Assembly: GCA_030263535.1 (NCBI GenBank)
Contig: SZPB01000013.1
Span: forward strand, 1-62,518
Direction: 5' to 3'
Length of the DNA: 62,518 nt
Origin: Cytophagia bacterium CHB2
Lineage (GTDB): Bacteria; Zhuqueibacterota; Zhuqueibacteria; Zhuqueibacterales; Zhuqueibacteraceae
Numbering within the stretch: position 1 is the first letter of the stretch; every line of letters starts with the position of its first letter. Shown piece by piece: positions 7,945 to 29,620 of the stretch. Both the position numbers and the translations under genes were made by a program. The notes under the pieces are model-generated. The model had not been told where the DNA came from. It worked only from the letters and a program-made list of their open reading frames with translations, and made no database searches.

Positions 7945-10239
7945 ATGCAAACCAAAGCACTTTATCAAGTTCCGGATCTACCGATAGCAGAGCGTGTCGC
8001 GGACTTGCTTTCGCGCATGACGCTTGAAGAAAAAGCTGCCCAAATGATTTGCGTTTGGCAGGATAAGAACCGGACACTCGTGGATGAGACAGGCAGATTT
8101 GATTTCGAAAAGGCCAGCTTCCATTATAAAGAGGGATATGGCTTGGGTCAGATTGGTCGCCTCAGCGATACCGCTGGCGGCATTAACGCCAGAGAGCAAG
8201 CCGAACTGTCCAACACGATTCAGAAATTTTTTATTGAAAACAGCCGCCTCGGCATACCGGTGGTTTTTCATGAAGAATGTTTGCACGGCCAGGCGGCGGT
8301 TGACAGCACAAGTTTTCCGCAGCCCATTGGGTTGGGCGCCACGTTCGATTCCGATCTGATTCGACGGCTGTATGAAATGACCGCGGAAGAAGTGCGCGTG
8401 CGCGGCGTGCATCAAGCGTTGACGCCGGTTCTGGATGTGGCGCGCGATCCGCGCTGGGGGCGCGTGGAGGAAACGTTCGGAGAAGATCCCTATCTCGTGG
8501 CGCGTTTGGGCGTTGCCGCGGTGCAAGGTTTTCAGGGTGACGGCGCGTTCAAAAACAGAAAAAGCATCATTGCAACGCTGAAACATTTCGCCGCGCACGG
8601 CCAGCCGGAATCCGGCACGAATTGCGCACCCGTGAATGTCTCCGAGCGCGTTCTGCGCGAAGTTTTTCTCTATCCTTTTAGAGAAGCCATTCAAAAAGGC
8701 GGCGCAATGAGCGTGATGGCATCGTACAATGAGATTGACGGTGTGCCCTCGCATGCCAACCAATGGCTCTTGCGAAAAGTTCTCCGTAAAGAGTGGGGCT
8801 TCAAAGGATTCGTGGTTTCCGATTATTACGCCATTCGCGAGCTTGAAATCCGGCCTGATTTTGGTCTCGGCAATCATGTTGCCAAAGACGGCAAGGAGGC
8901 GGCGCTGCTGGCTGCACGTGCCGGCGTGAATATCGAAATGCCCGAACCGGATTGCTATAAGCACCTGGTCGAGTTGGTGCGTGAACGCCGTTTGGAAGAA
9001 TCTGTTCTTGATGAACTCGTCGCCGCAGTACTGATTTACAAATTCAAGCTGGGGTTGTTCGAAGATCCCTATGTTGATCCTGCCGCCGCCGAACGCATTG
9101 TCGGTAGCAAGGCCAATCGCAAGCTGGCCTTGCAAGCCGCGCGCGAAACCATCACGCTGCTCAAGAACGATCACGGCGTCGCGCCGCTTGATCTCAAAAA
9201 GATCAAAACCCTTGCTGTTATTGGCCCCAATGCCGATCGCGAATTGCTCGGCGGATACAGCGGCAAGCCCAAGCAAGTTTCAACCGTGTTAAGCGGCATT
9301 CGCGAGCGCGCGGGCGCTGCCGCGCAGATTCTCTATCACGAAGGTTGCAAGATTACAATTGGCGGGTCATGGCATCAAGATGAAGTTGTGCCCAGCGATC
9401 CGGAGGAAGATCGCAAAAGCATCGCCGAAGCTGTGAAGGTTGCGCAACAAGCGGATGCCATTGTGCTGGCCATCGGCGGCAACGAACAAACCTCGCGCGA
9501 GGCCTGGGCGTTGAACCATCTCGGTGATCGCGCAGATTTGGAAATGGTTGGCCGGCAGGACGAGCTGGTGAATGCCATTGCCGCGCTCGGCAAGCCGGTC
9601 ATTGCCCTTCTCTTCAACGGTAGGCCGCTCTCCGTGCGCAATCTCGTTGAGAAAGTGCCGGTGATTTTTGAATGCTGGTATTTGGGTCAGGAAACCGGTC
9701 AGGCAGTGGCGGACGTGTTGTTCGGAGAGGTGAATCCCGGCGGCAAGCTGCCGATCACGATCCCGCGTTCGGTTGGACATATTCCGGCTTACTACAATTA
9801 CAAGCCCTCGGCGCGCCGCGGTTATCTCTTCGAATCTGTAGAGCCGTTGTTCGCTTTTGGCTTTGGACTCAGCTACACACAGTTTCGCTTCAGCCCACCG
9901 CGTTTGGATAAAACCGCAATTCGCCCGGAAGAATCGACCCGCGTGACCGTGGAGGTGACAAACGCGGGCAACCGGGCCGGCGATGAAGTTGTGCAGATGT
10001 ATATTCGCGACAAAGTCAGCTCCGTGACGCGCCCGGTGAAGGAACTGAAAGGATTCCAGCGGATCAGCCTGCAGCCGGGCGAGGCCAAGACCGTGGCGTT
10101 CGATATCACCCCGGAGCATCTGGCGTTTTACAATATCGATATGAATTATGTGGTGGAACCCGGCGATTTTGAAATCATGTTGGGGAATTCCTCGCGTGAT
10201 CAGGATTTGCAAAAAATTCTGCTCACGGTGGAGGGATAG
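7945..10239 (+). CDS. GH3 beta-xylosidase/beta-glucosidase, probably cytoplasmic
   Basis: At 764 residues with no signal peptide, this is likely intracellular. It has the complete GH3 layout: N-terminal barrel with KHFAAHG (K213-H214), nucleophile D293 in VVSDYYAI, the (alpha/beta)6 sandwich domain (ending near the RPLS and GEVNPGGKLP motifs), and the C-terminal fibronectin III-like domain (GDEVVQMYIRD). GH3 members remove terminal xylose or glucose from oligosaccharides. The upstream symporter ends 43 bases earlier, so the pair likely imports and cleaves xylo-oligosaccharides. Which sugar is preferred cannot be decided from sequence. No strong ribosome site precedes the ATG. Confidence 0.9.
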   Translation: MQTKALYQVPDLPIAERVADLLSRMTLEEKAAQMICVWQDKNRTLVDETGRFDFEKASFHYKEGYGLGQIGRLSDTAGGINAREQAELSNTIQKFFIENSRLGIPVVFHEECLHGQAAVDSTSFPQPIGLGATFDSDLIRRLYEMTAEEVRVRGVHQALTPVLDVARDPRWGRVEETFGEDPYLVARLGVAAVQGFQGDGAFKNRKSIIATLKHFAAHGQPESGTNCAPVNVSERVLREVFLYPFREAIQKGGAMSVMASYNEIDGVPSHANQWLLRKVLRKEWGFKGFVVSDYYAIRELEIRPDFGLGNHVAKDGKEAALLAARAGVNIEMPEPDCYKHLVELVRERRLEESVLDELVAAVLIYKFKLGLFEDPYVDPAAAERIVGSKANRKLALQAARETITLLKNDHGVAPLDLKKIKTLAVIGPNADRELLGGYSGKPKQVSTVLSGIRERAGAAAQILYHEGCKITIGGSWHQDEVVPSDPEEDRKSIAEAVKVAQQADAIVLAIGGNEQTSREAWALNHLGDRADLEMVGRQDELVNAIAALGKPVIALLFNGRPLSVRNLVEKVPVIFECWYLGQETGQAVADVLFGEVNPGGKLPITIPRSVGHIPAYYNYKPSARRGYLFESVEPLFAFGFGLSYTQFRFSPPRLDKTAIRPEESTRVTVEVTNAGNRAGDEVVQMYIRDKVSSVTRPVKELKGFQRISLQPGEAKTVAFDITPEHLAFYNIDMNYVVEPGDFEIMLGNSSRDQDLQKILLTVEG

Positions 10240-10268
10240 CGTCACGCAAGAACTTTTTTAGCGCCGCC

Positions 10269-10295
10269 CCGGGACGGTCGCAACGGCCGTCCCGG
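10269..10295. terminator. GC-rich hairpin after the GH3 gene
   Basis: A perfect 9-bp stem CCGGGACGG/CCGTCCCGG with a 9-base loop lies 30 bases after the GH3 stop and is followed by a short T-rich run. It is either a terminator or a repetitive palindrome; the weak T-tract leaves this open. Confidence 0.45.
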
Positions 10296-10457
10296 TTGTT
10301 CTTCGCCGTTACTGTGCGTGTTCGTATTAACGCCTTCAGGTGTTCAAAGTTTGACAAAGAGCAAGTGACATCATCGGTTTTGGTGTTCTTAAGGATGCGA
10401 AATGAACAGGACGAAACCTCCCACGAGTTTTTGTTTGCATTCAATCAAGGAAGAACA

Positions 10458-13088
10458 ATGCGAGCACTTGTTTTCAGCCTGTTATTGAGTTGTCACCTCC
10501 TCGATGCGCAAGAAATGAACAACCAACTTGAGTACCTTGATCACACGCTGCCCATGGCAAGGCGTGTCGATGATTTGATCTCCCGCATGACGCTGGAGGA
10601 AAAGATTTCGCAAATGGGGCACAGCGCCCAGGCCATTCCGAGGTTGCAGATACCCGAATACAATTGGTGGAATGAATGCTTGCATGGCGTGGCGCGCGCG
10701 GGCACGGCCACGGTGTTTCCGCAAGCCATTGCGCTGGCCGCAACCTGGAATACGGACTTGATGCGCCATATCGCCGAAGTGACTTCGACGGAAGCGCGCG
10801 CCAAACATCATGAATATGCGCGGCAGGGTGATCGCGATATTTACAAAGGATTGACGTTTTGGAGTCCGAATATCAACATCTTTCGCGATCCGCGCTGGGG
10901 CCGCGGCCAGGAGACGTACGGTGAAGATCCTTATCTCACCAGCCGCATGGGCGTGGCGTTTGTGAAGGGTTTGCAGGGCGATGATCCCAAATATTTCAAA
11001 GTCATCGCAACGCCGAAACACTATGCCGTGCACAGCGGCCCGGAGCCGGAGCGCCACGCCTTTGACGCCGTTACCAACAACCGCGATCTTTACGACACCT
11101 ATCTGCCTGCTTTCGAAGCCTGCATCAAAGAAGCAGGCGCTTTTTCCGTGATGTGCGCCTACAATCGTTACATGGGCGAAGCGTGTTGCGGCTCGCCGCG
11201 CTTGTTGCAGAAGATCTTGCGCGCAGATTGGGGCTTTCAGGGCTATGTGGTCTCGGATTGCGGCGCGATTGCCGATATTTTTGAATATCACAAAATTTCA
11301 AAAACCGGCGCAGAAGCTGCGGCGCTCGCGGTGAAATCCGGCACAGATTTGAATTGTGGCAGCGTCTATCAATCGGCCCTGCTCGAGGCCGTTCAACAAA
11401 AACTGTTGCCGGAAGAAGAGATCAATACTGCGGTGCGACGTCTGTTTACGGCGCGCTTCAAGCTGGGCATGTTCGATCCGCCGGAATTGGTCAAGTATGC
11501 CAGCATACCATTCGAGGTGAATGACTCCCCGGAGCATCGCCAACTTTCGTTGCGCGCGGCGCAGGAGTCCATCGTCCTGCTCAAGAACGAGAACAATCTT
11601 CTGCCTCTCAAAAAGGATTTGAAACGGATTGCCGTCATCGGGCCAACGGCGAATTCCTATTTGATGCTGCTCGGAAATTATCACGGCACGCCTTCACGAT
11701 ATGTCACGCCTCTGCGCGGCATTCAGAACAAAGCCGGGCGCACCACCGAGGTGGTTTATGCCAACGGCTGTGATCTGATTGAAGAAGACAAGATCATCCA
11801 CAATCTGTCTTCGGAGAACTTGAGCGCCGGAGGCAACCCCGGATTGCAGGCGGAATACTTTCGCAGCACAAACCTGGAAGGTGAACCGTTCTTCACAAAA
11901 ATCGATCCCATTGACAATGCTAACTGGATCTACGGCACGCGTCTTCCCAATCTCAGAAAAGAACCGAAATTCTCTATCCGCTGGAGCGGCATGTTCACCG
12001 CGCCGGAAACCGGAGATTACAAATTTACCATCGCGGGTGATGACGGCTATCGTCTGTTCCTCGACGGAAAGGCCATCATCGAAAATTGGACCGAACACGA
12101 CGCGGCGGCCTCGAAAAGCAATCGCCTGTCTCTGGAAAAAGGCAAAGCGTATCCGCTGAGATTGGAATTTTTTCACAACTCCGGCCGCCCGCAGTTGTTC
12201 GTGCAATGGGAGTTGTTGAACTTCGATTATTTCAATCAAGCGATCGAACTGGCTAAGCGCGCGGAGGTGGTTATTTTTGCCGGCGGGATCACCGCGCAGT
12301 TGGAGGGCGAGGAAATGCGGGTGGATTACGAAGGTTTTCGCGGCGGCGATCGCACGAGCCTTGACTTGCCCAAAGTGCAGGAACGTTTGCTCAATGCTCT
12401 ACATGCCACCGGCACGCCGGTTGTCCTTGTGCTCAGCAGCGGCAGCGCGCTGGCTGTGAATTGGGCCAACGAAAACATTCCGGCCATCATTCAGCTTTGG
12501 TATCCGGGGCAGGAGGGCGGAACCGCGCTGGCTGACGTACTTTTCGGAGATTATAATCCTGCCGGCAGATTGCCGGTGACGTTCTACAAATCCGTTGAGC
12601 AACTGCCGCCCTTTGCAGATTACAATATGAAGGGCCGCACCTACCGGTATTTTGAAGGCGAGCCGCTGTTTCCATTTGGATACGGCTTGAGTTATACGAA
12701 ATTCGAATATCGCAATCTCTCGCTTCCTGATGAAATCAAAGCTGGAGAGGAGACAAAAGTTTCTGTCGAAGTGCATAACACGGGAATGCGGGCGGGCGAT
12801 GAAGTGGTCCAACTTTATGTCAAAAATTTGACCGCCTCCGCGCCCGTGCCGTTGCGTGCATTGCAGGGCTTCAAACGCATTCATTTAAAGCCGGGCGAAA
12901 CGCAGGTTGTCGCGTTTGTTTTGCAGCCGAGGCAACTCGCGCGCATCGATGAGAAGAATCAATTTGTAGTTGAACCAGGCGGGTTTGAAATAGCCGTGGG
13001 TAGCGTACTTCCGGGGACGGCAGCCGCAACGACCGGAACTCTTACAAAAGAAATAAGAATTACCGGCGAAAGCTACTTGGTGAACTGA
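10458..13088 (+). CDS. GH3 beta-xylosidase with PA14 domain, exported
   Basis: I chose the ATG at 10458 because AAGGAAG lies just upstream and the protein then begins with a signal peptide (ALVFSLLLSCHLLDAQ); the frame is open further upstream without support. Of 876 residues, the GH3 barrel holds KHYAVHSGPEP and nucleophile D267 in VVSDCGAI. A PA14 domain (~460-590: LQAEYF, DDGYRLFLDG, VQWEL) is inserted in the C-domain, and a fibronectin III-like tail ends it. PA14-GH3 proteins trim beta-linked sugars in the periplasm or at the surface. HSGPEP resembles xylosidase-type GH3s. Its 3' end overlaps the convergent lacI-type gene by 16 bases. Confidence 0.9.
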   Translation: MRALVFSLLLSCHLLDAQEMNNQLEYLDHTLPMARRVDDLISRMTLEEKISQMGHSAQAIPRLQIPEYNWWNECLHGVARAGTATVFPQAIALAATWNTDLMRHIAEVTSTEARAKHHEYARQGDRDIYKGLTFWSPNINIFRDPRWGRGQETYGEDPYLTSRMGVAFVKGLQGDDPKYFKVIATPKHYAVHSGPEPERHAFDAVTNNRDLYDTYLPAFEACIKEAGAFSVMCAYNRYMGEACCGSPRLLQKILRADWGFQGYVVSDCGAIADIFEYHKISKTGAEAAALAVKSGTDLNCGSVYQSALLEAVQQKLLPEEEINTAVRRLFTARFKLGMFDPPELVKYASIPFEVNDSPEHRQLSLRAAQESIVLLKNENNLLPLKKDLKRIAVIGPTANSYLMLLGNYHGTPSRYVTPLRGIQNKAGRTTEVVYANGCDLIEEDKIIHNLSSENLSAGGNPGLQAEYFRSTNLEGEPFFTKIDPIDNANWIYGTRLPNLRKEPKFSIRWSGMFTAPETGDYKFTIAGDDGYRLFLDGKAIIENWTEHDAAASKSNRLSLEKGKAYPLRLEFFHNSGRPQLFVQWELLNFDYFNQAIELAKRAEVVIFAGGITAQLEGEEMRVDYEGFRGGDRTSLDLPKVQERLLNALHATGTPVVLVLSSGSALAVNWANENIPAIIQLWYPGQEGGTALADVLFGDYNPAGRLPVTFYKSVEQLPPFADYNMKGRTYRYFEGEPLFPFGYGLSYTKFEYRNLSLPDEIKAGEETKVSVEVHNTGMRAGDEVVQLYVKNLTASAPVPLRALQGFKRIHLKPGETQVVAFVLQPRQLARIDEKNQFVVEPGGFEIAVGSVLPGTAAATTGTLTKEIRITGESYLVN

Positions 13089-14122
13089 AGCTCGGGCTTC
13101 AAAACTTTTGTGGATTCTCGCACAATAAATTCCGTGTCCAAGACCACACGTTTAGGCGGCAGCAGCGTCGGCGATTCAATGTTTTCGATCAATATTTCCG
13201 CAGCTTTTTTGCCGATCTCATGCTGCGGCGCGCGAATGGTGGTCAGCGGTACCGGATAAATTTTAGCGTAATAAATGTCATCGTTGCCGATGATGGAAAT
13301 ATCCTCGGGCACGCGCAGTTTCAGTTCTTTCAAGGCTGTCAAAACCGCCAGCGCCTGCAAATCATTGAAGCAAACTATGGCGGTCGGATAGGTGTCGCGG
13401 CTTCTGCACTTGAAATAGTCCAGCGTTCTTGCAAAACTTTCTTCATAGTTCGAACCGACGGACACGATCATATCTTTGTGAAACGCCAGCGTGCTTTCGC
13501 TGAACGCATGCCGGAAACCCTCGATACGTTCCTGAGTGTGAGAGGAGTTGGGTGGGCCGGCAAAATGGACGATCTTGGTGTGGCCGCTGTCGATCAAGTA
13601 GGTCACGGCCCGTTTGATTGCTTTGGTATTGTCAATCGCGACGACGTTCGCCTGTATGCCTTTAACGTCTTCCAAAAGCACAAACGGGTAGTTGATCATT
13701 CTTAATTTGAACAGATGCTCGATTTCTGCCCGCCCCTCAACCGTGGGGGCGATGATGGCGCCCTTGATGTCTTTCGTCGAAAAAAGATGTGACAGCTCTT
13801 TCTCACGCTCGTGGTCGCTTTCGGAACTGGCAACAATAACCGAGTAACCCTTGCTGTTTGCATATTCCCGCGCGCCGGTTGCAATGGAAGCATAAAACGG
13901 ATAATTCAAATCCTTGATGATAACGCCGATACTTTTGTCTTGGCTGGTTTTTTTAAGATTTCGAGCAACGCCTTTGGGCCGGAAATTGAGTTCCTTCATG
14001 ACCTTCAATATGTGATCGCGAGTTTCTGGCTTGACCGAATTTTTTGAGTTGATAACCGCAGAAACTGTTCCTTTGGAATAGTTCGCGCGTTTTGCAACCT
14101 CTGCAATTGTGACTTTTCTCAT
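13073..14122 (-). CDS. LacI-family transcriptional regulator
   Basis: I place the start at 14122 (GGAGAA 6 bases upstream; protein begins MRKVTIAEVAKRANYSKGTV), although the frame extends to 14194. The 349 residues hold a LacI helix-turn-helix plus hinge helix in the first ~60 and a periplasmic-binding-protein-like sensor domain (NVVAIDNTKA, SGHTKIVHFAGP, GNDDIYYAKI, TTIRAP). LacI proteins bind palindromic operators and release them, or bind, on a sugar ligand. Located among xylan genes and divergent from GH115, it probably controls this block. Ligand unknown. Confidence 0.92.
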   Translation of the reverse strand: MRKVTIAEVAKRANYSKGTVSAVINSKNSVKPETRDHILKVMKELNFRPKGVARNLKKTSQDKSIGVIIKDLNYPFYASIATGAREYANSKGYSVIVASSESDHEREKELSHLFSTKDIKGAIIAPTVEGRAEIEHLFKLRMINYPFVLLEDVKGIQANVVAIDNTKAIKRAVTYLIDSGHTKIVHFAGPPNSSHTQERIEGFRHAFSESTLAFHKDMIVSVGSNYEESFARTLDYFKCRSRDTYPTAIVCFNDLQALAVLTALKELKLRVPEDISIIGNDDIYYAKIYPVPLTTIRAPQHEIGKKAAEILIENIESPTLLPPKRVVLDTEFIVRESTKVLKPELQFTK

Positions 14123-14160
14123 ACTGTTCTCCGATTCGGTTGCAGGGAAAACAAGGTCTT

Positions 14161-14172
14161 TGAAACGGTTCA
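14161..14172. promoter_or_regulatory. Candidate LacI-type operator
   Basis: TGAAACGGTTCA has central CG and 10 of 12 symmetric positions, the usual LacI-operator form. It lies 38 bases ahead of the regulator's start in the space shared with GH115, consistent with autoregulation. A related half-site, TTGAACCGAA, occurs at 14218-14227. Confidence 0.45.
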
Positions 14173-14291
14173 TTTTTACAGAAGCAAGATACAAAATTTT
14201 TAGTTATAAACCAACGATTGAACCGAATACAGCTCTACTTTTTTGTGTAATTCGAAAAACTTCATGCCCACAATCAGCCTGAGGTAATGCC

Positions 14292-17276
14292 ATGCGAAAG
14301 GTGAGTATTGGTTGTACGATCCCTTTTTGTTTGATATTTTTAGCCACTGAACACGTGTGCTCCTCTGGTTTGACCGATGCAGAGCCGCCTAGAGACAGCC
14401 CGGTTGCGGCATTTTCAAATGAAGTAAACTCCTACATCTTAACCAAGAACGAGAAGGGCGCCTTTGCCCTTTCCTCCTCCGGCCGGTCGGCGCCATTACA
14501 CATCAGCTCGCAGGATTTCCCCGGCGTGCTGCGTGTGCTGAAACACTTGCAGAGCGACATTGCCCGCGTCACGAATGCCTCGCCCGACATCGCGATGGAT
14601 AAACTTCCCGCTGCTAAGGAAATCGTGTTGGTTGGCACTTTGGGCAAAAACCCGGTGATCGACAAACTCGTGCAGCAGAAAAAGCTTGACGTGAACGGCA
14701 TCGCGGGGAAGTGGGAAACTTTTCTTATTCAGGTTATTGAAAAGCCGCTGCCCAACATTGATCGTGTCTTGATCATTGCGGGCAGCGACAAGCGCGGCAC
14801 CATCTTCGGCATGTATGATCTTGCCGCGCAAATCGGCGTTTCGCCGTGGTACTATTGGGCCGATGTGCCGGTGAAGAAAAAGTCCGAAATTTATATCAAA
14901 CCCGGCCGGCACACGCTCGGCGAGCCGGCAGTGAAGTATCGCGGCATCTTCATCAATGATGAAAATCCGGCACTGCTGGGTTGGGTTAATAAAACCTTCG
15001 GCGGGTTCAATCATCAATTTTATGAAAAAGTTTTTGAATTGATCTTGCGCATGAAGGGAAATTTTCTCTGGCCGGCGATGTGGGGAAAAGCATTTTATGA
15101 TGACGATTCGCTCAACGCGCCGCTGGCCGACGAGTATGGCGTGGTGATCAGCACTTCGCACCACGAGCCGATGATGCGCGCGCATGTGGAATGGCAGCGC
15201 TACGGTTCCGGGCCGTGGAATTATGAAAAGAATGAAGCCAAATTGCGCGAGTTTTGGACGCAGGGCATCAAGCGCATGCGCAATTATGAAAGCATTGTGA
15301 CTCTCGCGATGCGCGGCGACGGCGACGAGCCGATGACGGAAGAAGCGAATATCGGATTGCTGCAGAGAATCGTTAAAGATCAGCGTGAAATTCTTGGGCA
15401 AGTAACGGGCAAAGAAGTAACGAGCATTCCGCAAGTTTGGGCGCTTTACAAAGAAGTGCAGGACTATTATGATCACGGCATGCGTGTGCCGGATGACGTG
15501 ACGCTGTTGTTGTGCGATGATAATTGGGGCAACATTCGCAAGCTTCCCCAGCGCGATGAAAAGCCGCGGCCCGGCGGTTACGGAATCTATTATCATTATG
15601 ATTACGTCGGCGGTCCGCGAAATTACAAATGGCTCAACACCAATCAAATTTCGCGTGTGTGGGAGCAAATGCATCTGGCATATCGTTATGGCGCTGATCG
15701 CATTTGGATTGTAAATGTCGGCGACATCAAGCCGATGGAGTTTCCCATCGAGTTTTTTTTGGATTACGCCTGGAATCCGGAACAATGGCCGGCTGAGCGT
15801 CTGCCGGAGTACACCCGACTCTGGGCAGAACGGCAATTCGGGCCGGAACATGCGAACGATATTGCCGATATTTTGACGCAATACACTAGATTCAATTCAC
15901 GCCGGAAGCCCGAACTGCTCGCGCCAGACACTTACAGTCTGGTCAACTATCGCGAAGCAGAAACCGTCGTGGCTGAATACAACGAGCTGTCTGCGCGCGC
16001 CCGGCGCATCAGTGATTCCTTGCCAGCGAAATACAAAGATGCTTTCTATCAACTCGTCTTGCACCCTGTTGAAGCCTGCGCGAATTTGAATGAGCTTTAT
16101 GTCACGGTTGGCAAAAATCGCTTGTATGCACAACAAGGACGGGTGGCCGCCAATACGCTGGCGCAAAAAGCCAGAGAATTGTTCAAACGTGACGCTGAGA
16201 TCACCCATTACTACAACAATGTGATGGCCGACGGCAAGTGGTCGCACATGATGGATCAGACGCACATCGGCTACACTTACTGGCAGCAGCCAGACAGCAA
16301 TTCCATGCCCGCCGTCAAAGAGAGCGTCATTCCAGCCGCCGCAGAAATGGGCGTTGCCATCGAAGGTTCGGCACAATGGTGGCCGAATGAAAAACGCGAA
16401 GCCGTTCTGCCGGAGTTCGATCCCTATCACCAGCAAAATTATTATATCGAAATCTTCAATCGCGGGCAAACGTCTTTTGAGTATTCAGTGCAAGCCGGAG
16501 AACCGTGGGTTAAAGTTGAACCCGCAAAGGGAAATATCGAAACAGAAAAGCGTTTGTGGATCAGCATTGATTGGAAAAACGTTCCAATTGGCAAACAGCG
16601 CGTTCCGATTACGCTTGCTGGCCCCAACAATCGCCGCGTTGTTGTGCAAGTCGTCATCAATAATCCTTCGGCTCCGAAACGCGATGAGATTGCCGGCTTT
16701 GTTGAGAGCAATGGTTATGTTTCAATCGAAGCGGAGCATTACACGCGCAATGTAGCGCAGGCGTCCTCGCCTGCATCTGCAGACAAGATGTCTGCGCTAC
16801 GGTGGCAGCGCATTCCGGATTTGGGGCGCACGCTCTCGGCGATGACGCCGGTGCCGGTCACCGCACCGCCACAAACGCCCGGCGGCGACAGCCCGCGCTT
16901 GGAATATCAAATTTATTTCTTCAACAAAGGCGAGGTGAAGGTCAAAGCGTACCTGTCGCCAACGCTGAATTTCCACAACAATCAAGGTTTGCGCTACGCG
17001 ATATCGTTTGACGATGAAGCGCCGCAGAGTGTCAACATGCACGCGAACAAAAATTTTCAAGACTGGGAAGAATCCGTGCGCAACAACGTCACGATTGAAG
17101 CATCGAAGCACGTGATCAATGCGCCGGGGAAACATGTTTTGAAATTTTGGATGGTTGATCCCGGCGTCGTTCTGCAAAAACTGGTCATCGAAACCGGTGA
17201 AGTCAGGCCCAGCTATTTGGGACCTCCAGAGAGTTATCAACGGCTTGGAACAGATGGCTCGGAGGGGTTGCAATAG
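14292..17276 (+). CDS. Xylan alpha-1,2-glucuronidase, GH115
   Basis: GAGG precedes the ATG. The 994-residue protein has an N-terminal signal-like segment (FCLIFLATEHVCSS) and the GH115 core: GTIFGMYDLAAQIGVSPWYYWAD, KYRGIFINDE, RMKGNFLWPAMWGKAF, STSHHEPM, RGDGDEPM and LCDDNWGN. GH115 enzymes release (4-O-methyl-)glucuronate from internal or terminal xylose units of xylan. The C-terminal region (~790-990) is the usual beta domain with IEAEHY and RWQRIPDLGRTLSAM. A 49-bp palindrome (16752-16800) inserts about 16 residues between these two motifs. Its product may feed both UxuA and the methyl-transfer module. Confidence 0.93.
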   Translation: MRKVSIGCTIPFCLIFLATEHVCSSGLTDAEPPRDSPVAAFSNEVNSYILTKNEKGAFALSSSGRSAPLHISSQDFPGVLRVLKHLQSDIARVTNASPDIAMDKLPAAKEIVLVGTLGKNPVIDKLVQQKKLDVNGIAGKWETFLIQVIEKPLPNIDRVLIIAGSDKRGTIFGMYDLAAQIGVSPWYYWADVPVKKKSEIYIKPGRHTLGEPAVKYRGIFINDENPALLGWVNKTFGGFNHQFYEKVFELILRMKGNFLWPAMWGKAFYDDDSLNAPLADEYGVVISTSHHEPMMRAHVEWQRYGSGPWNYEKNEAKLREFWTQGIKRMRNYESIVTLAMRGDGDEPMTEEANIGLLQRIVKDQREILGQVTGKEVTSIPQVWALYKEVQDYYDHGMRVPDDVTLLLCDDNWGNIRKLPQRDEKPRPGGYGIYYHYDYVGGPRNYKWLNTNQISRVWEQMHLAYRYGADRIWIVNVGDIKPMEFPIEFFLDYAWNPEQWPAERLPEYTRLWAERQFGPEHANDIADILTQYTRFNSRRKPELLAPDTYSLVNYREAETVVAEYNELSARARRISDSLPAKYKDAFYQLVLHPVEACANLNELYVTVGKNRLYAQQGRVAANTLAQKARELFKRDAEITHYYNNVMADGKWSHMMDQTHIGYTYWQQPDSNSMPAVKESVIPAAAEMGVAIEGSAQWWPNEKREAVLPEFDPYHQQNYYIEIFNRGQTSFEYSVQAGEPWVKVEPAKGNIETEKRLWISIDWKNVPIGKQRVPITLAGPNNRRVVVQVVINNPSAPKRDEIAGFVESNGYVSIEAEHYTRNVAQASSPASADKMSALRWQRIPDLGRTLSAMTPVPVTAPPQTPGGDSPRLEYQIYFFNKGEVKVKAYLSPTLNFHNNQGLRYAISFDDEAPQSVNMHANKNFQDWEESVRNNVTIEASKHVINAPGKHVLKFWMVDPGVVLQKLVIETGEVRPSYLGPPESYQRLGTDGSEGLQ
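16752..16800. repeat. In-frame GTAG...CTAC palindromic element inside GH115
   Basis: The ends GTAGCGCAG and CTGCGCTAC are inverted. Inside lie two hairpins, GCAGGCG-TCCT-CGCCTGC and GCAGACA-AGA-TGTCTGC, giving a cruciform. It encodes a short Ala/Ser-rich loop between conserved GH115 motifs and keeps the frame open. Confidence 0.7.
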
Positions 17277-17361
17277 TTCTTTTAGCGCGCGCACTATTTT
17301 AAAAACAGAAAAAGGGAAATTCTATAAGACGATGAAGACAACTAAAACTGGATGATGACAC

Positions 17362-17853
17362 GTGCATATATCACTCACGAATTTTGCTTACATTATCGGC
17401 CGGTGGGAGGGAAGTGGCCGTGCGGAGTATCCGACCATCGTTCCTCGCGATTATCGCGAAGAACTCGTTTTTGCAGTGAACGGCAAGGATACCACGATTC
17501 ATTTTGAACAACGCACCTGGATCAAATCTGCGGATGAGCGCAATGGTGAGCCGCTGTTCTGGGAATCTGGTTTCCTGCTTGACAAGGGCGAGGGATTATT
17601 CGAAATGGTCAGCGCACAAAAAAGCGGACGAGTAGAAATTCTGCGAGGCGGCGCGCAAAAAACGGATGAAACGATAATCAAACTTGACCTGGCCAGCGTT
17701 GCGATTCTCAATGATGATCGCATGATCCGAGCGGGCCGGATGCTCCATTTCCATGGAGAGACTTTGGAGTATGAGTTATGGATGAGTACGACCAAGAACA
17801 TCGCCTACCAAAGGCATCTGGTCGCGCGACTGACACATAAAGGAAGACCGTAA
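17362..17853 (+). CDS. Nitrobindin-like (FABP/THAP4 heme-binding-like) protein
   Basis: The 163-residue protein has a GTG start (a stop lies two codons upstream in frame). It begins with an FAYIIGRWEGSGRAEYP motif typical of the nitrobindin/DUF1794 beta-barrel (GxWxGxG), followed by a lipocalin-like strand pattern ending HLVARLTHKG. Some relatives bind heme through a C-terminal His; here H157 in RHLVA is a possible ligand. The gene abuts an esterase (2 bases). Its role in a xylan operon is unknown; it could act in redox sensing or be a hitch-hiker. Confidence 0.7.
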   Translation: MHISLTNFAYIIGRWEGSGRAEYPTIVPRDYREELVFAVNGKDTTIHFEQRTWIKSADERNGEPLFWESGFLLDKGEGLFEMVSAQKSGRVEILRGGAQKTDETIIKLDLASVAILNDDRMIRAGRMLHFHGETLEYELWMSTTKNIAYQRHLVARLTHKGRP

Positions 17854-17855
17854 TA

Positions 17856-18791
17856 ATGCATAAGTTGATCCGAACATTCAAGCTTTGTGCGCTGCTTGCA
17901 GTTTGTGAGGTGAGCTTTGCTCAAACGCAGACTCCTGGCGCCGACAAATGGGTGGACTACGCTGCGGGCGAATATGAAATGCTGCCCAACATCACCTATG
18001 CCACTGCAAACAATACGGAGTTGAAACTCGATCTCTATCTGCCCAGAGATCGCAGCGTGCCGCTTCCCACGCTCATTCTTTTTCACGGCGGCGGTTGGGT
18101 GGCGGGAATGAAAGAGCGCAATGTGTTTTGGTTGCTTCCCTATTTATCCATGGGATGGGCAGTAATCAATGTGGAGTATCGCATTGCGCAGAACTCGCTG
18201 GCGCCGGCCGCGGTGGAAGATTGCCGCTGTGCATTAAGATGGGCGACCTATAACGCCGGGCGGTATAACTTGGATGCTTCCAAGTTTGTGCTGACCGGCA
18301 CTTCGGCTGGCGGACACCTGGCCTTGATCACCGGCATGTTGCCGGCGTTGAATGTTTTTGACCGGCAGTGCCCAACGAATGATAGCACACGCTGGGCAAA
18401 AGGAACGGAGCCGGAAACAAAAGTTGCCGCCATCGTCAACTGGTTCGGCATTACGGAGGTCGCTGATCTGCTTGATGGGCCGAATGCCAAACACTACGCT
18501 ATCGAATGGTTCGGCAGCATGAGCAACCGGCTGGAACTCGCGCGGCAAGTTTCACCGCTCAACTACGTGCGCGCCGGGCTGCCGCCGATCATCACGATTC
18601 ACGGCGACCAGGATAACATTGTGCCCTATAATCACGCCGTACAGTTGCACGCCGCTTTGGACAAAGCCGGTGTGCCGAATCAGCTTGTCACGATTCGCGG
18701 CGGCAAGCATGGCGGCTTCAATCGGCAAGACTTTGTGAACAGCTTTGCAACCATCAGAGAGTTTTTGCGCAAGAATAGTGTTTTAAAGTGA
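17856..18791 (+). CDS. Secreted alpha/beta-hydrolase esterase (acetyl-xylan-esterase-like)
   Basis: GGAAG lies upstream of the ATG and the protein starts with a signal peptide (cleavage near SFAQ). The 311 residues show FHGGGWV (oxyanion hole), nucleophile Ser in TGTSAGGHL, Asp in HGDQDNIVPY and His in GGKHGGF: the BD-FAE/carboxylesterase type used for acetyl or feruloyl groups on hemicellulose. Neighbouring CE4 and GH43 genes support deacylation of xylan. The ester removed is not known. Confidence 0.82.
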   Translation: MHKLIRTFKLCALLAVCEVSFAQTQTPGADKWVDYAAGEYEMLPNITYATANNTELKLDLYLPRDRSVPLPTLILFHGGGWVAGMKERNVFWLLPYLSMGWAVINVEYRIAQNSLAPAAVEDCRCALRWATYNAGRYNLDASKFVLTGTSAGGHLALITGMLPALNVFDRQCPTNDSTRWAKGTEPETKVAAIVNWFGITEVADLLDGPNAKHYAIEWFGSMSNRLELARQVSPLNYVRAGLPPIITIHGDQDNIVPYNHAVQLHAALDKAGVPNQLVTIRGGKHGGFNRQDFVNSFATIREFLRKNSVLK

Positions 18792-18799
18792 GGTGATTG

Positions 18800-18875
18800 A
18801 CAGAAAGATGATTGGCAGAAAAATCTTAATCACTCGGCTTTATTTTTCCGCCAGTCATTTTTCTGTCATAGCTTT
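18800..18875. repeat. Intergenic palindromic repeat, GGCAGAAAAAT...CATTTTTCTG type
   Basis: GATTGGCAGAAAAATC and GCCAGTCATTTTTCTGTC form an imperfect inverted repeat. It belongs with the similar sequence at 2829-2900. It lies in front of the deacetylase, inside the open frame that extends upstream of the chosen GTG. Confidence 0.45.
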
Positions 18876-18912
18876 TATTCAGACCAACCTAACCCTGCAA
18901 AGGCAGAATAGA

Positions 18913-19719
18913 GTGAAATTCAAAACTCCAATCTTTCTTCAAATCACATCACTGCTCTTTTTGTCCGGATTTGGATTTGAAATGAACGCCCAAGAAAAAA
19001 GTTTATGGCATGGTAAAACGTGCGCCGTGTCGCTCACTTATGATGACGCGCTCAATGTGCATTTGGACAATGTCATTCCTGCTCTCGACTCTTTGGGTTT
19101 AAAAGGCACGTTTTATTTGTCGGGATATTTTCCCGCTTTTCGCCAGCGCGTGGCCGATTGGAAAGCGGCGGCGAGCAAAGGGCATGAGTTGGGCAATCAT
19201 ACTTTATTTCATCCGTGTACGGGAAAATTGCCTGGCAGAGAATGGGTGCCGCCCGATTATGACTTGGGAAATTACACGATGCAACGCTTGGTCGATGAAA
19301 TAAAAATGGCAAACACGCTTCTCGAGGCGCTCGACGGCAAAACGAAAAGAACGTTTGCATATCCTTGCGGCGATGTGAAGATCGGCGACGAATCGTATGT
19401 TGATAAAATCAAAACCAAATTTGTTGCCGCGCGCGGCGTGAAAAGCAGAATGCCGAAAATTTCTGAAATTGATTTGTTCGATGTCGATGCTTATGTCATC
19501 AGTGGGCAATCGGGTGAAGAACTCATCGCGTTGGTCAGGCAAGCGATGCAAAATAATGCCTTGATCGTTTTTCTCTTTCATGGCGTTGGCGGCGAGCATT
19601 CAATCGACGTCTCGTTGAGCGCCCATCACCAGCTTTTGCGCTTTCTCAAGCAGAACGAAAAAGACATTTGGATCGCGCCTTTGGTGGATATTGCGGAGCA
19701 CGTCAAAGAAAACAAATGA
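18913..19719 (+). CDS. Polysaccharide deacetylase-like protein (CE4 / NodB fold)
   Basis: The GTG at 18913 is chosen because a signal peptide (FLQITSLLFLSGFGFEMNAQ) follows at once; an earlier GTG at 18793 would add a repeat-derived tail. The 268 residues carry the NodB signature: SLTYDDA (Asp pair), GTFYLSGYF, and HELGNHTLFHPC with the two metal His. The region FAYPCGD and a C-terminal FLFHGVG complete the active site. CE4 enzymes remove acetyl from xylan or chitin-type sugars. Its stop overlaps the next ATG, so translation of GH43 is probably coupled. Confidence 0.85.
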   Translation: MKFKTPIFLQITSLLFLSGFGFEMNAQEKSLWHGKTCAVSLTYDDALNVHLDNVIPALDSLGLKGTFYLSGYFPAFRQRVADWKAAASKGHELGNHTLFHPCTGKLPGREWVPPDYDLGNYTMQRLVDEIKMANTLLEALDGKTKRTFAYPCGDVKIGDESYVDKIKTKFVAARGVKSRMPKISEIDLFDVDAYVISGQSGEELIALVRQAMQNNALIVFLFHGVGGEHSIDVSLSAHHQLLRFLKQNEKDIWIAPLVDIAEHVKENK

Positions 19720-21494
19720 GAACCATGCCTAATCAACAAAAAATCTCCCGCAAAGACACAGAGACGCAAAGAATGCGCAGAGATATTCTTTGCGTTCCTT
19801 TGCGCCTTTGCGTCTTTGCGTGCGCTGTTGCTTTTTGCATTTGGGATTGCCGATCGACGGCTTGTGGCCAGAATAGCGCGAGTTTCACCAACCCCATTTT
19901 AGCCGGCTTCTATCCTGATCCCAGTATTTGTCGCGTCGGCAGCGATTACTATTTGGTGACTTCGTCATTTTCCTATTATCCCGGCATCCCGATTTTCCAC
20001 AGCAAGGATTTGGCGAACTGGAAGCAATTCGGGCACGTGATGGATCGGCCGGAGCAATTGGATTTGGACGGCCTCGGCGTTTCGCGCGGTATCTTCGCGC
20101 CGTCGATTCGATATCATGATGGGATGTTTTATGTCACCTGCACATTGGTTGACAAGGGCGGCAACTTCCTCGTCACCTCGAAAAAAGCCGAAGGGCCGTG
20201 GTCAAATCCGGTTTGGATTCCCGAGATTAACGGCATCGATCCTTCCATGTTTTTTGATGAGAACGGCAAGGCTTATGTCGTTTATAACAGCATTCCGCCG
20301 GACGACAAGCCGCTTTATGACGGGCATCGCACATTGCGGATGTATGAATTTGATATCGCCAATCTGAAAGTGACCGGTGAGGAAATGCTGCTCGTCAATG
20401 GCGGCGTCGATCTCAGCAAAAAACCGGTCTGGATTGAAGCGCCGCATATTTTTCAAAAAGACGGTTTTTATTATTTGATCGCAGCCGAAGGCGGCACTGG
20501 CGATCAACATTCCGAAGTCGTATTCAGAAGCAAAGCCGTTGCCGGTCCGTATGTTCCTTACGAGAAGAATCCGATTTTAACCCAAAGGCATTTGGATCCG
20601 AAAAGAAAAAATCCCATCACTTCCACCGGCCATGCGGATTTTGTCGAGACCGAAAGCGGCGATTGGTGGGCCGTATTTTTAGGCTGCCGGCCTTATGATG
20701 ATGATTTGTACAACACCGGCAGAGAAACTTTTTTAGCGCCGGTGCAATGGCAAAATGGTTGGCCGGTCATCAATCCGTATCATGTGGAAGTGCAGTATCA
20801 TTGTCCCATCTCTACAAAAGTATCGGCGGAGAAATCCGAGATTCAGTACAGCGGCAATTTTATATTGAAGGATGAATTCGAATCGGATAAGCTGAGTTAC
20901 AGTTGGCTTTTCTTGAGAACGCCGCGAACACAATGGCATAGCTTGTCACAACGCAAAGATTATTTAACCCTGCAACTGCGGCCCGAGACGTGTGCGGAAA
21001 ATGTCAATCCCAGTTTCTTGGGACATCGCCAACAGCACTTGCAGGGCGAAGCCAGCGCCGCGTTGGAGTTTATGCCAAAAGCTGAAAATGAAAAAGCCGG
21101 TTTGTTGGTCTTTCAAAGCGAAAAGCACTTCTATTTTCTCTGCAAATCTTTGGAAGGCGGCAAGCCTGTCGTTCAGCTCTATAAATCCAGCGAGACTCCT
21201 CCGCAAATGGAACTATTGGCGTCACTAATGCTTGACGACGATCAAGCAAAACAAAAACTGTTGCTGAAAATCGAAGCGCGCCGCAGCACGTATTCATTTT
21301 TGTATGCCAGCAATTCGGATAAATGGAATCTGCTGAAGGAGAATGTCGACGCCAAATTTCTAAGCACTAAAGTTGCCGGAGGTTTTGTGGGATGCGTTTA
21401 TGCGTTGTATGCAACTTCTCTGGGCAAGCCCAGCGACAACGCCGCATACTTTGATTGGTTTGAATCGCGGGGAGATGATGATGTTTATAAATGA
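19716..21494 (+). CDS. GH43 family beta-xylosidase/arabinofuranosidase, exported
   Basis: The ATG at 19716 overlaps the deacetylase stop (ATGA); a second ATG is at 19725. The 592-residue protein has a long N-terminus whose hydrophobic part (LCVPLRLCVFACAVAFCIW) is encoded by a CGCAAAG-type repeat. The GH43 five-blade propeller follows with Asp in NPILAGFYPDPS, Asp in GIDPSMFFDE and Glu in WIEAPHIF. The C-terminal ~200 residues are a GH43-type beta-sandwich (DEFESDKLSYSWLFLRTP). Activity is likely xylosidase and/or arabinofuranosidase on xylan fragments. Confidence 0.88.
   Translation: MRTMPNQQKISRKDTETQRMRRDILCVPLRLCVFACAVAFCIWDCRSTACGQNSASFTNPILAGFYPDPSICRVGSDYYLVTSSFSYYPGIPIFHSKDLANWKQFGHVMDRPEQLDLDGLGVSRGIFAPSIRYHDGMFYVTCTLVDKGGNFLVTSKKAEGPWSNPVWIPEINGIDPSMFFDENGKAYVVYNSIPPDDKPLYDGHRTLRMYEFDIANLKVTGEEMLLVNGGVDLSKKPVWIEAPHIFQKDGFYYLIAAEGGTGDQHSEVVFRSKAVAGPYVPYEKNPILTQRHLDPKRKNPITSTGHADFVETESGDWWAVFLGCRPYDDDLYNTGRETFLAPVQWQNGWPVINPYHVEVQYHCPISTKVSAEKSEIQYSGNFILKDEFESDKLSYSWLFLRTPRTQWHSLSQRKDYLTLQLRPETCAENVNPSFLGHRQQHLQGEASAALEFMPKAENEKAGLLVFQSEKHFYFLCKSLEGGKPVVQLYKSSETPPQMELLASLMLDDDQAKQKLLLKIEARRSTYSFLYASNSDKWNLLKENVDAKFLSTKVAGGFVGCVYALYATSLGKPSDNAAYFDWFESRGDDDVYK
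19749..19824. repeat. CGCAAAG-type palindromic repeat overlapping the GH43 signal sequence
   Basis: Runs of CGCAAAGAC on the left and CTTTGCGTCTTTGCG on the right make a long imperfect inverted repeat. Similar tandem CGCAAAG motifs are widespread in bacterial intergenic DNA. Here the repeat encodes the charged and hydrophobic parts of the export signal. Confidence 0.65.
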
Positions 21495-21506
21495 AAGGAT
21501 TTCACC

Positions 21507-27733: not shown

Positions 27734-27939
27734 GTCCCGAAGGGACTTGTGAAAATAGCCCCGCCATTTATGGCGGGGATTTGAAGTCATGGTTTTGCAC
27801 AAGTCCCGCGAGGGACGATTGAATTCTCACGATCAACGCGCACTTCTCATTCGTCCCTTGCGGGACTTATGAGGATATGTTGGCATGTTGACCCCGCGAT
27901 AAATCGCGGGGCTATTTTCATCTGTCCCTTTGCGGGACA
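27734..27939. repeat. Six-hairpin composite palindromic element (two inverted copies)
   Basis: Six perfect or near-perfect stems lie in a row: AGTCCC-GAA-GGGACT (27734), CCCCGCCA-TTTA-TGGCGGGG (27760), GTCCC-GCGA-GGGAC (27803), GTCCCTTGCGGGAC (27853), CCCCGCGA-TAAA-TCGCGGGG (27892) and TGTCCCTTTGCGGGACA (27923). The second trio is the reverse complement of the first in order and in flanking GAAAATAGC words, so two copies face each other. It fills most of the 282-base gap before the ALDH gene. Confidence 0.7.
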
Positions 27940-27972
27940 GATCATGGCGCTTTTCTTACGTGAAATAATAAT

Positions 27973-29551: not shown

Positions 29552-29620
29552 CTTTGCGTATTACGCATTACGTTTTACGGGTTACGTAACGAGTAATGCG
29601 TAATCCGTAAAACGCAAAAA
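29552..29620. repeat. TTACGCATTACG-type palindromic repeat
   Basis: TTTGCGTATTACGCATTACG and, inverted on the right, GTAATGCGTAATCCG with GTAAAACGCAAA surround a TTACGTAAC centre. It lies directly after the ALDH stop and reaches the ribosome site of the next gene. Confidence 0.55.

Follow-up and report, generated by a model that had tools for sequence, protein, structure and literature searches.

The 49-bp palindrome at positions 16752-16800 of the window, the whole 62,518-nucleotide stretch from Cytophagia bacterium CHB2 that was analysed, is best explained as a REPIN-like mobile element that consists of two inverted, head-to-head GTAG REPs and landed in a GH115 gene within the KSB1 family. 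A probability of about 90% is assigned to this reading. REPINs are made up of two inverted REPs that form one unit, for which mobilisation in trans by a RAYT is generally assumed, and the window element is like them in its two inverted REPs.

The host gene on the forward strand (14292-17276) encodes a GH115 alpha-glucuronidase of 994 aa, identified by Pfam matches of the ORF to Glyco_hydro_115 (5.7e-160, aa 210-542) and GH115_C (5.1e-64, aa 802-980). The palindrome is read in frame and without a stop as codons 821-837, giving the 17 residues VAQASSPASADKMSALR with five Ala and four Ser. It is flanked by ..EAEHYTRN and WQRIPDLGRT.. and lies near the start of, but within, the GH115_C domain. Around GH115, a carbohydrate-degradation locus extends over about 8000-21500 of the window, in which the neighbouring ORFs were named by eye only. 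These include a GH3-like ORF (10296-13088) with a partly similar sequence upstream of it, a LacI-like regulator on the minus strand, an alpha/beta hydrolase, and polysaccharide deacetylase-like and GH43-like ORFs.

The element has the sequence GTAGCGCAGGCGTCCTCGCCTGCATCTGCAGACAAGATGTCTGCGCTAC. Its ends, GTAGCGCAG and CTGCGCTAC, are exact reverse complements and form a 9-bp terminal inverted repeat around two hairpins with 7-bp stems, GCAGGCG-tcct-CGCCTGC at 16757-16774 (loop of 4 nt) and GCAGACA-aga-TGTCTGC at 16779-16795 (loop of 3 nt). As GCAG is common to the outer stem and the hairpins, the result is a three-armed fold of about 5 outer bp plus 7 and 7 bp. The DNA fold was calculated at -22.8 kcal/mol (z -3.6), and equal stability was reached in 1 of 200 shuffles. 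Both the three-armed palindrome and its translation into an Ala/Ser-rich loop of GH115, as proposed in the preliminary description, could be confirmed. A GTAG is found at each outer end, each on its own strand and directly at the foot of the hairpin, so that the element can be divided into REP unit A on the forward strand (GTAGCGCAGGCGTCCTCGCCTGC, 16752-16774, GTAG tag and 7-bp hairpin), a 4-bp spacer ATCT (16775-16778) and REP unit B on the reverse strand (GTAGCGCAGACATCTTGTCTGC, 16779-16800). An Rfam search around the element returned no family at E-values up to 1.

Homologues of GH115 were detected by protein search in 34 of 82 genomes of the phylum, and 23 sequences, including that of the window, were aligned. 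The segment is carried by three of them, belonging to the window genome (G000), a genome of the same species (G075) and one of the same family (G079). The other 20 homologues (G080, G078 and 18 more) have six variable residues from V to W instead of 16, as in the sequence AV-EPSPIE-WQRIPDLGR of G080, and the solved GH115 structure PDB 4ZMH likewise lacks the segment. The segment is hence derived and was inserted in such a way that the reading frame is preserved. On the DNA level, 21 nt (GTG + 18) in the empty sites stand against 49 + 2 nt in the filled site. The net change amounts to +30 nt and +10 aa with the frame kept, and is not a clean addition of 49 bp; judging from the aligned sequences, the host has probably lost some 19-21 nt, or these were overwritten. 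The occurrence of the segment in two genera of the family would also fit an ancestral GH115 loop that is palindromic by accident, in which case, according to the preliminary description, all homologues should contain it. This explanation is refuted by the 20 homologues and the 4ZMH structure without the segment. In addition, relatives carry the DNA of the segment at sites other than GH115, so that an ancestral loop is considered very improbable.

The full element is present in one copy in its own 7-Mb assembly. The spread of the palindrome suggested in the preliminary description is therefore not seen within this genome, which shows no sign of activity of the element, but its repeat family is multi-copy in relatives. 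The exact outer stem was counted 59 times in G081, ten times in G077, four times in G080, twice in G076 and once each in G075 and G078, with 0 matches for the reversed control; outside the family, it was found in none of the 82 phylum genomes searched. G081, a member of the same family, contains 156 half-units (reversed-pattern control 0), among which a very common unit is identical to REP unit B, and full-length copies with 89.8% identity are present in G081 and G077. The single copy in the own genome would be compatible with a palindrome that arose by chance or by hairpin-templated duplication on the spot, without any relation to mobile repeats. This is, however, refuted by the family-wide full-length copies and half-units and is further contradicted by the identity of REP unit A to REPs that flank a RAYT gene (described below); such an origin is thus hardly conceivable.

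In a scan of GTDB, the outer stem was found in at least 120 stretches, from Opitutaceae, Anaerolineae, Hydrogenedentota, Acidobacteria, Gallionellaceae and others; since the outer stem alone served as the criterion, some of these matches are due to chance. Copies were counted as inside a gene if they lay within an ORF of at least 200 aa with 50 aa on either side, and were compared with random positions from the same loci. Only 2 of 27 copies in the KSB1 family were located inside long ORFs versus 52% of the random positions; for the GTDB sample, the corresponding values are 18 of 107 copies and 65%. The copies are thus mostly extragenic and avoid genes.

A GTAG leads to a TAG stop in only one of the three frames on either strand, and the element can therefore be read through. 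In the GH115 frame, it is translated as GTA GCG CAG (V-A-Q). All copies within ORFs are translated as VAQ... or xSA..., and the third frame, in which GTAG gives TAG, is never used. Besides GH115, five other in-frame copies could be assigned to recognisable genes. They are located in two leucyl-tRNA synthetases (L099, within the editing domain, and L122), a hydantoinase B (L145, Gallionellaceae STA_18), a Mur-ligase-family protein (L173) and a SAM methyltransferase (L021, from the family member G078). Another apparent in-gene copy (L162) was rejected as a probable chance match, as it reads like native ABC-transporter sequence. The hydantoinase ORF of L145 (842-4723, minus strand) contains more repeat-like in-frame stretches besides the REP, namely PHPGPLPEGEG, PPPPPFGKEG and PRPLSQGERG.

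For the movement of the element, a RAYT, i.e., a single-strand HUH/Tyr transposase, would recognise the GTAG hairpins. Each of the eight family genomes contains RAYT-like genes, in four of them above the curated cut-off. An inspection of about 40 Y1_Tnp/RAYT loci of the KSB1 family showed no GTAGCGCAG units beside the gene, and a scan of 120 loci revealed no RAYT beside the repeats, a weak negative result given a profile built from IS200-like proteins. The RAYT search was also carried out with NF047646 in 19 other genomes reached through the GTDB loci. At a locus from Hydrogenophilales (L336), the RAYT gene has GTAGCGCAGGCGTCCTCGCCTGC on either side. These flanking units do not differ from REP unit A, the left half of the window element, and their translation VAQASSPASA is the same peptide as in GH115. 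A RAYT gene from Acidobacteria (L313) is accompanied by five and seven GTAGCGCAG-tagged hairpins on its two sides, the stem of which differs from that of the window element. The cleavage of GTAG hairpins by RAYTs has been published for REPs of E. coli and S. maltophilia (PMC8266576). From these flanks and the published cleavage we infer that mobility driven by a RAYT is the best explanation for the window element.

Two other repeat regions were observed in the window. A cluster of hairpins at 27734-27940 (CCCCGCCATTTATGGCGGGG, CCCCGCGATAAATCGCGGGG and GTCCC-GGGAC arms) resembles repeats around a Y1_Tnp gene in the same-species genome (G075:C125, L226) and is probably a non-autonomous IS200-type repeat array. 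At 29553-29611, a 27-nt inverted repeat with TACGCATTACG-like units and a loop of 5 nt is located just upstream of an ATG.

GTAG REPs are described by Di Nocera (2013, PMC3733652) as hairpins with a stem of 6-13 bp and a short loop that form head-to-head dimers with a variable short spacer. They are reported there as mostly extragenic, with some in frame in genes; the in-gene REPs are most abundant in O. terrae. The window element matches these REPs in the tag, the stem and the head-to-head heterodimer, the comparison being based on the architecture described for the 24 published GTAG families; KSB1, the phylum of the window, is not among the phyla named in the part of that paper used here. 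In-gene GTAG REPs were reported from several phyla in 2013 (PMC3733652), so the assumption of the preliminary description that in-frame palindromes are unusual outside Rickettsia is not supported, and the GH115 case adds to a known phenomenon. In contrast to REPINs (Bertels and Rainey 2011, PMC3116915), the own genome contains one copy and not a population, and the spacer has only 4 bp. In the 'double foot' REPs, which belong to TnpA-REP subclass 2.4, the 5' end reads GT[AG]G and the 3' end reads C[TC]AC, its complement, and in-frame REPs have been reported within tnpA-REP genes (PMC6006769). The window element has the same end pattern but is located in an unrelated enzyme gene.

A true Rickettsia palindromic element (RPE) would lead to the same outcome, a palindrome in frame in coding genes. 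The tag here is, however, GTAG, whereas CGTC is reported for the RPEs of R. conorii (PMC3733652); the two are set apart here by this described tag. Furthermore, REPs with the same body as the window element flank RAYT genes, whereas RPEs are reported to have no dedicated transposase (PMC3733652). Among the explanations considered, an RPE is the least probable.

The GH115 alleles differ in the state of the insert. In G075, a 6-bp in-frame deletion at the hairpin junction has removed two codons, i.e., the ATCT spacer and two further bases, while in G079 the length is kept and pairs are lost in the outer stem and in one hairpin. The computed minimum free energy of the insert as RNA is -28.7 kcal/mol in G000 and falls to -19.3 in G075 and -16.9 in G079. 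The gene as a whole has a dN/dS of 0.075-0.085 versus relatives. The frame is thus kept and the palindrome decays while the gene remains under purifying selection, as would be expected if the loop is a tolerated passenger, and neutrality is the most likely status of the insert. Within the REPIN-like reading, the element hit a variable stretch of six residues in the C-terminal domain, which is accessory, so that the enzyme tolerated about ten extra residues. Translation of the insert probably adds a loop that does no harm.

Selection could instead have kept the insert, either for a hairpin acting in the mRNA (stability, ribosome pausing) or for the loop in the enzyme. The insert is common to three genomes, and between G000 and G079 only 3 of its 15 synonymous sites are changed, so that it has diverged less than the remaining gene (dS 0.93). 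However, this low divergence is explained equally well by lateral exchange, given that the gene is mosaic, and the loss of stem pairs in G079 and of two residues in G075 argues against such retention. In addition, the dN/dS of the insert (0.24-0.38, resting on 1-3 changes per class) is above that of the gene. Retention by selection is therefore regarded as unlikely, if somewhat less so than the other alternatives.

In a tree of the GH115 proteins with the insert removed, two changes are needed to explain its distribution, and the data do not reject one common clade for the carriers (p-AU 0.15). As the identity along the GH115 genes is also mosaic among relatives, the insert may have been passed on between these organisms by lateral exchange. 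The region downstream of GH115 (17300-18000) is 99-100% identical on the DNA level to a locus of G078 (L042), which belongs to another genus, whereas GH115 itself shows only about 75-90% identity to it per 200-bp window. The downstream match is due to either recent exchange or shared assembly.

Furthermore, nine loci were found at which a whole RAYT gene is embedded in frame in a host enzyme. One of them is located in the own genome (G000:C230:1500-7300, L242/L345), where a complete RAYT lies within a 1280-aa frame encoding a DUF1156 and methyltransferase protein. The allele of the same species (G075:C566, L344) and a homologue in G036 have no RAYT and are continuous across the site. In the window genome, the gene of this protein also carries REP-like repeats of 27 nt, three of them in tandem, and additional palindromic inserts that keep the frame. 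The other host proteins are HsdR, the R subunit of a type I restriction system (G042, on a 2.6-Mb contig), an SNF2-type helicase (G029), an Eco57I-type methylase (G061), an EcoEI-type R subunit and an AlaRS (both G100, the latter L346), a uracil-DNA glycosylase (L336), and a second uracil-DNA glycosylase (L390) and a second AlaRS (L383), which were identified by alignment to L336 and L346, respectively. The nine loci include L341 and L347 (both HsdR), L342 and L343.

In the betaproteobacterial glycosylase pair (L336/L390), the RAYT and the host domain both have a dN/dS of 0.136 at a dS of about 0.5, and the embedded RAYTs retain an intact MPNHVH motif. The AlaRS inserts, which originate from two Verrucomicrobiota, occupy the same position. 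In the openly readable literature, no description of RAYT genes in frame inside host enzymes was found. Based on these sequence comparisons, it is conceivable, though slightly short of an even chance, that the REP/RAYT system lives in host proteins as translated in-frame passengers, in the form of REP loops and of stop-less whole transposase genes with the transposase domain under purifying selection.

With the GH115 insert, KSB1 and an enzyme of carbohydrate degradation join the known cases of in-gene REP insertion. Since the GH115 alleles of related genomes are filled, decaying or empty, the fate of an in-gene REP becomes traceable, and recurring odd peptides in predicted proteins (VAQASSPA..) can be explained as translated mobile DNA. 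If the passenger lifestyle holds true, the embedded RAYTs would occupy an intein-like niche without known splicing and, if functional, would represent a way for a transposase to persist in genes that would otherwise be disrupted.
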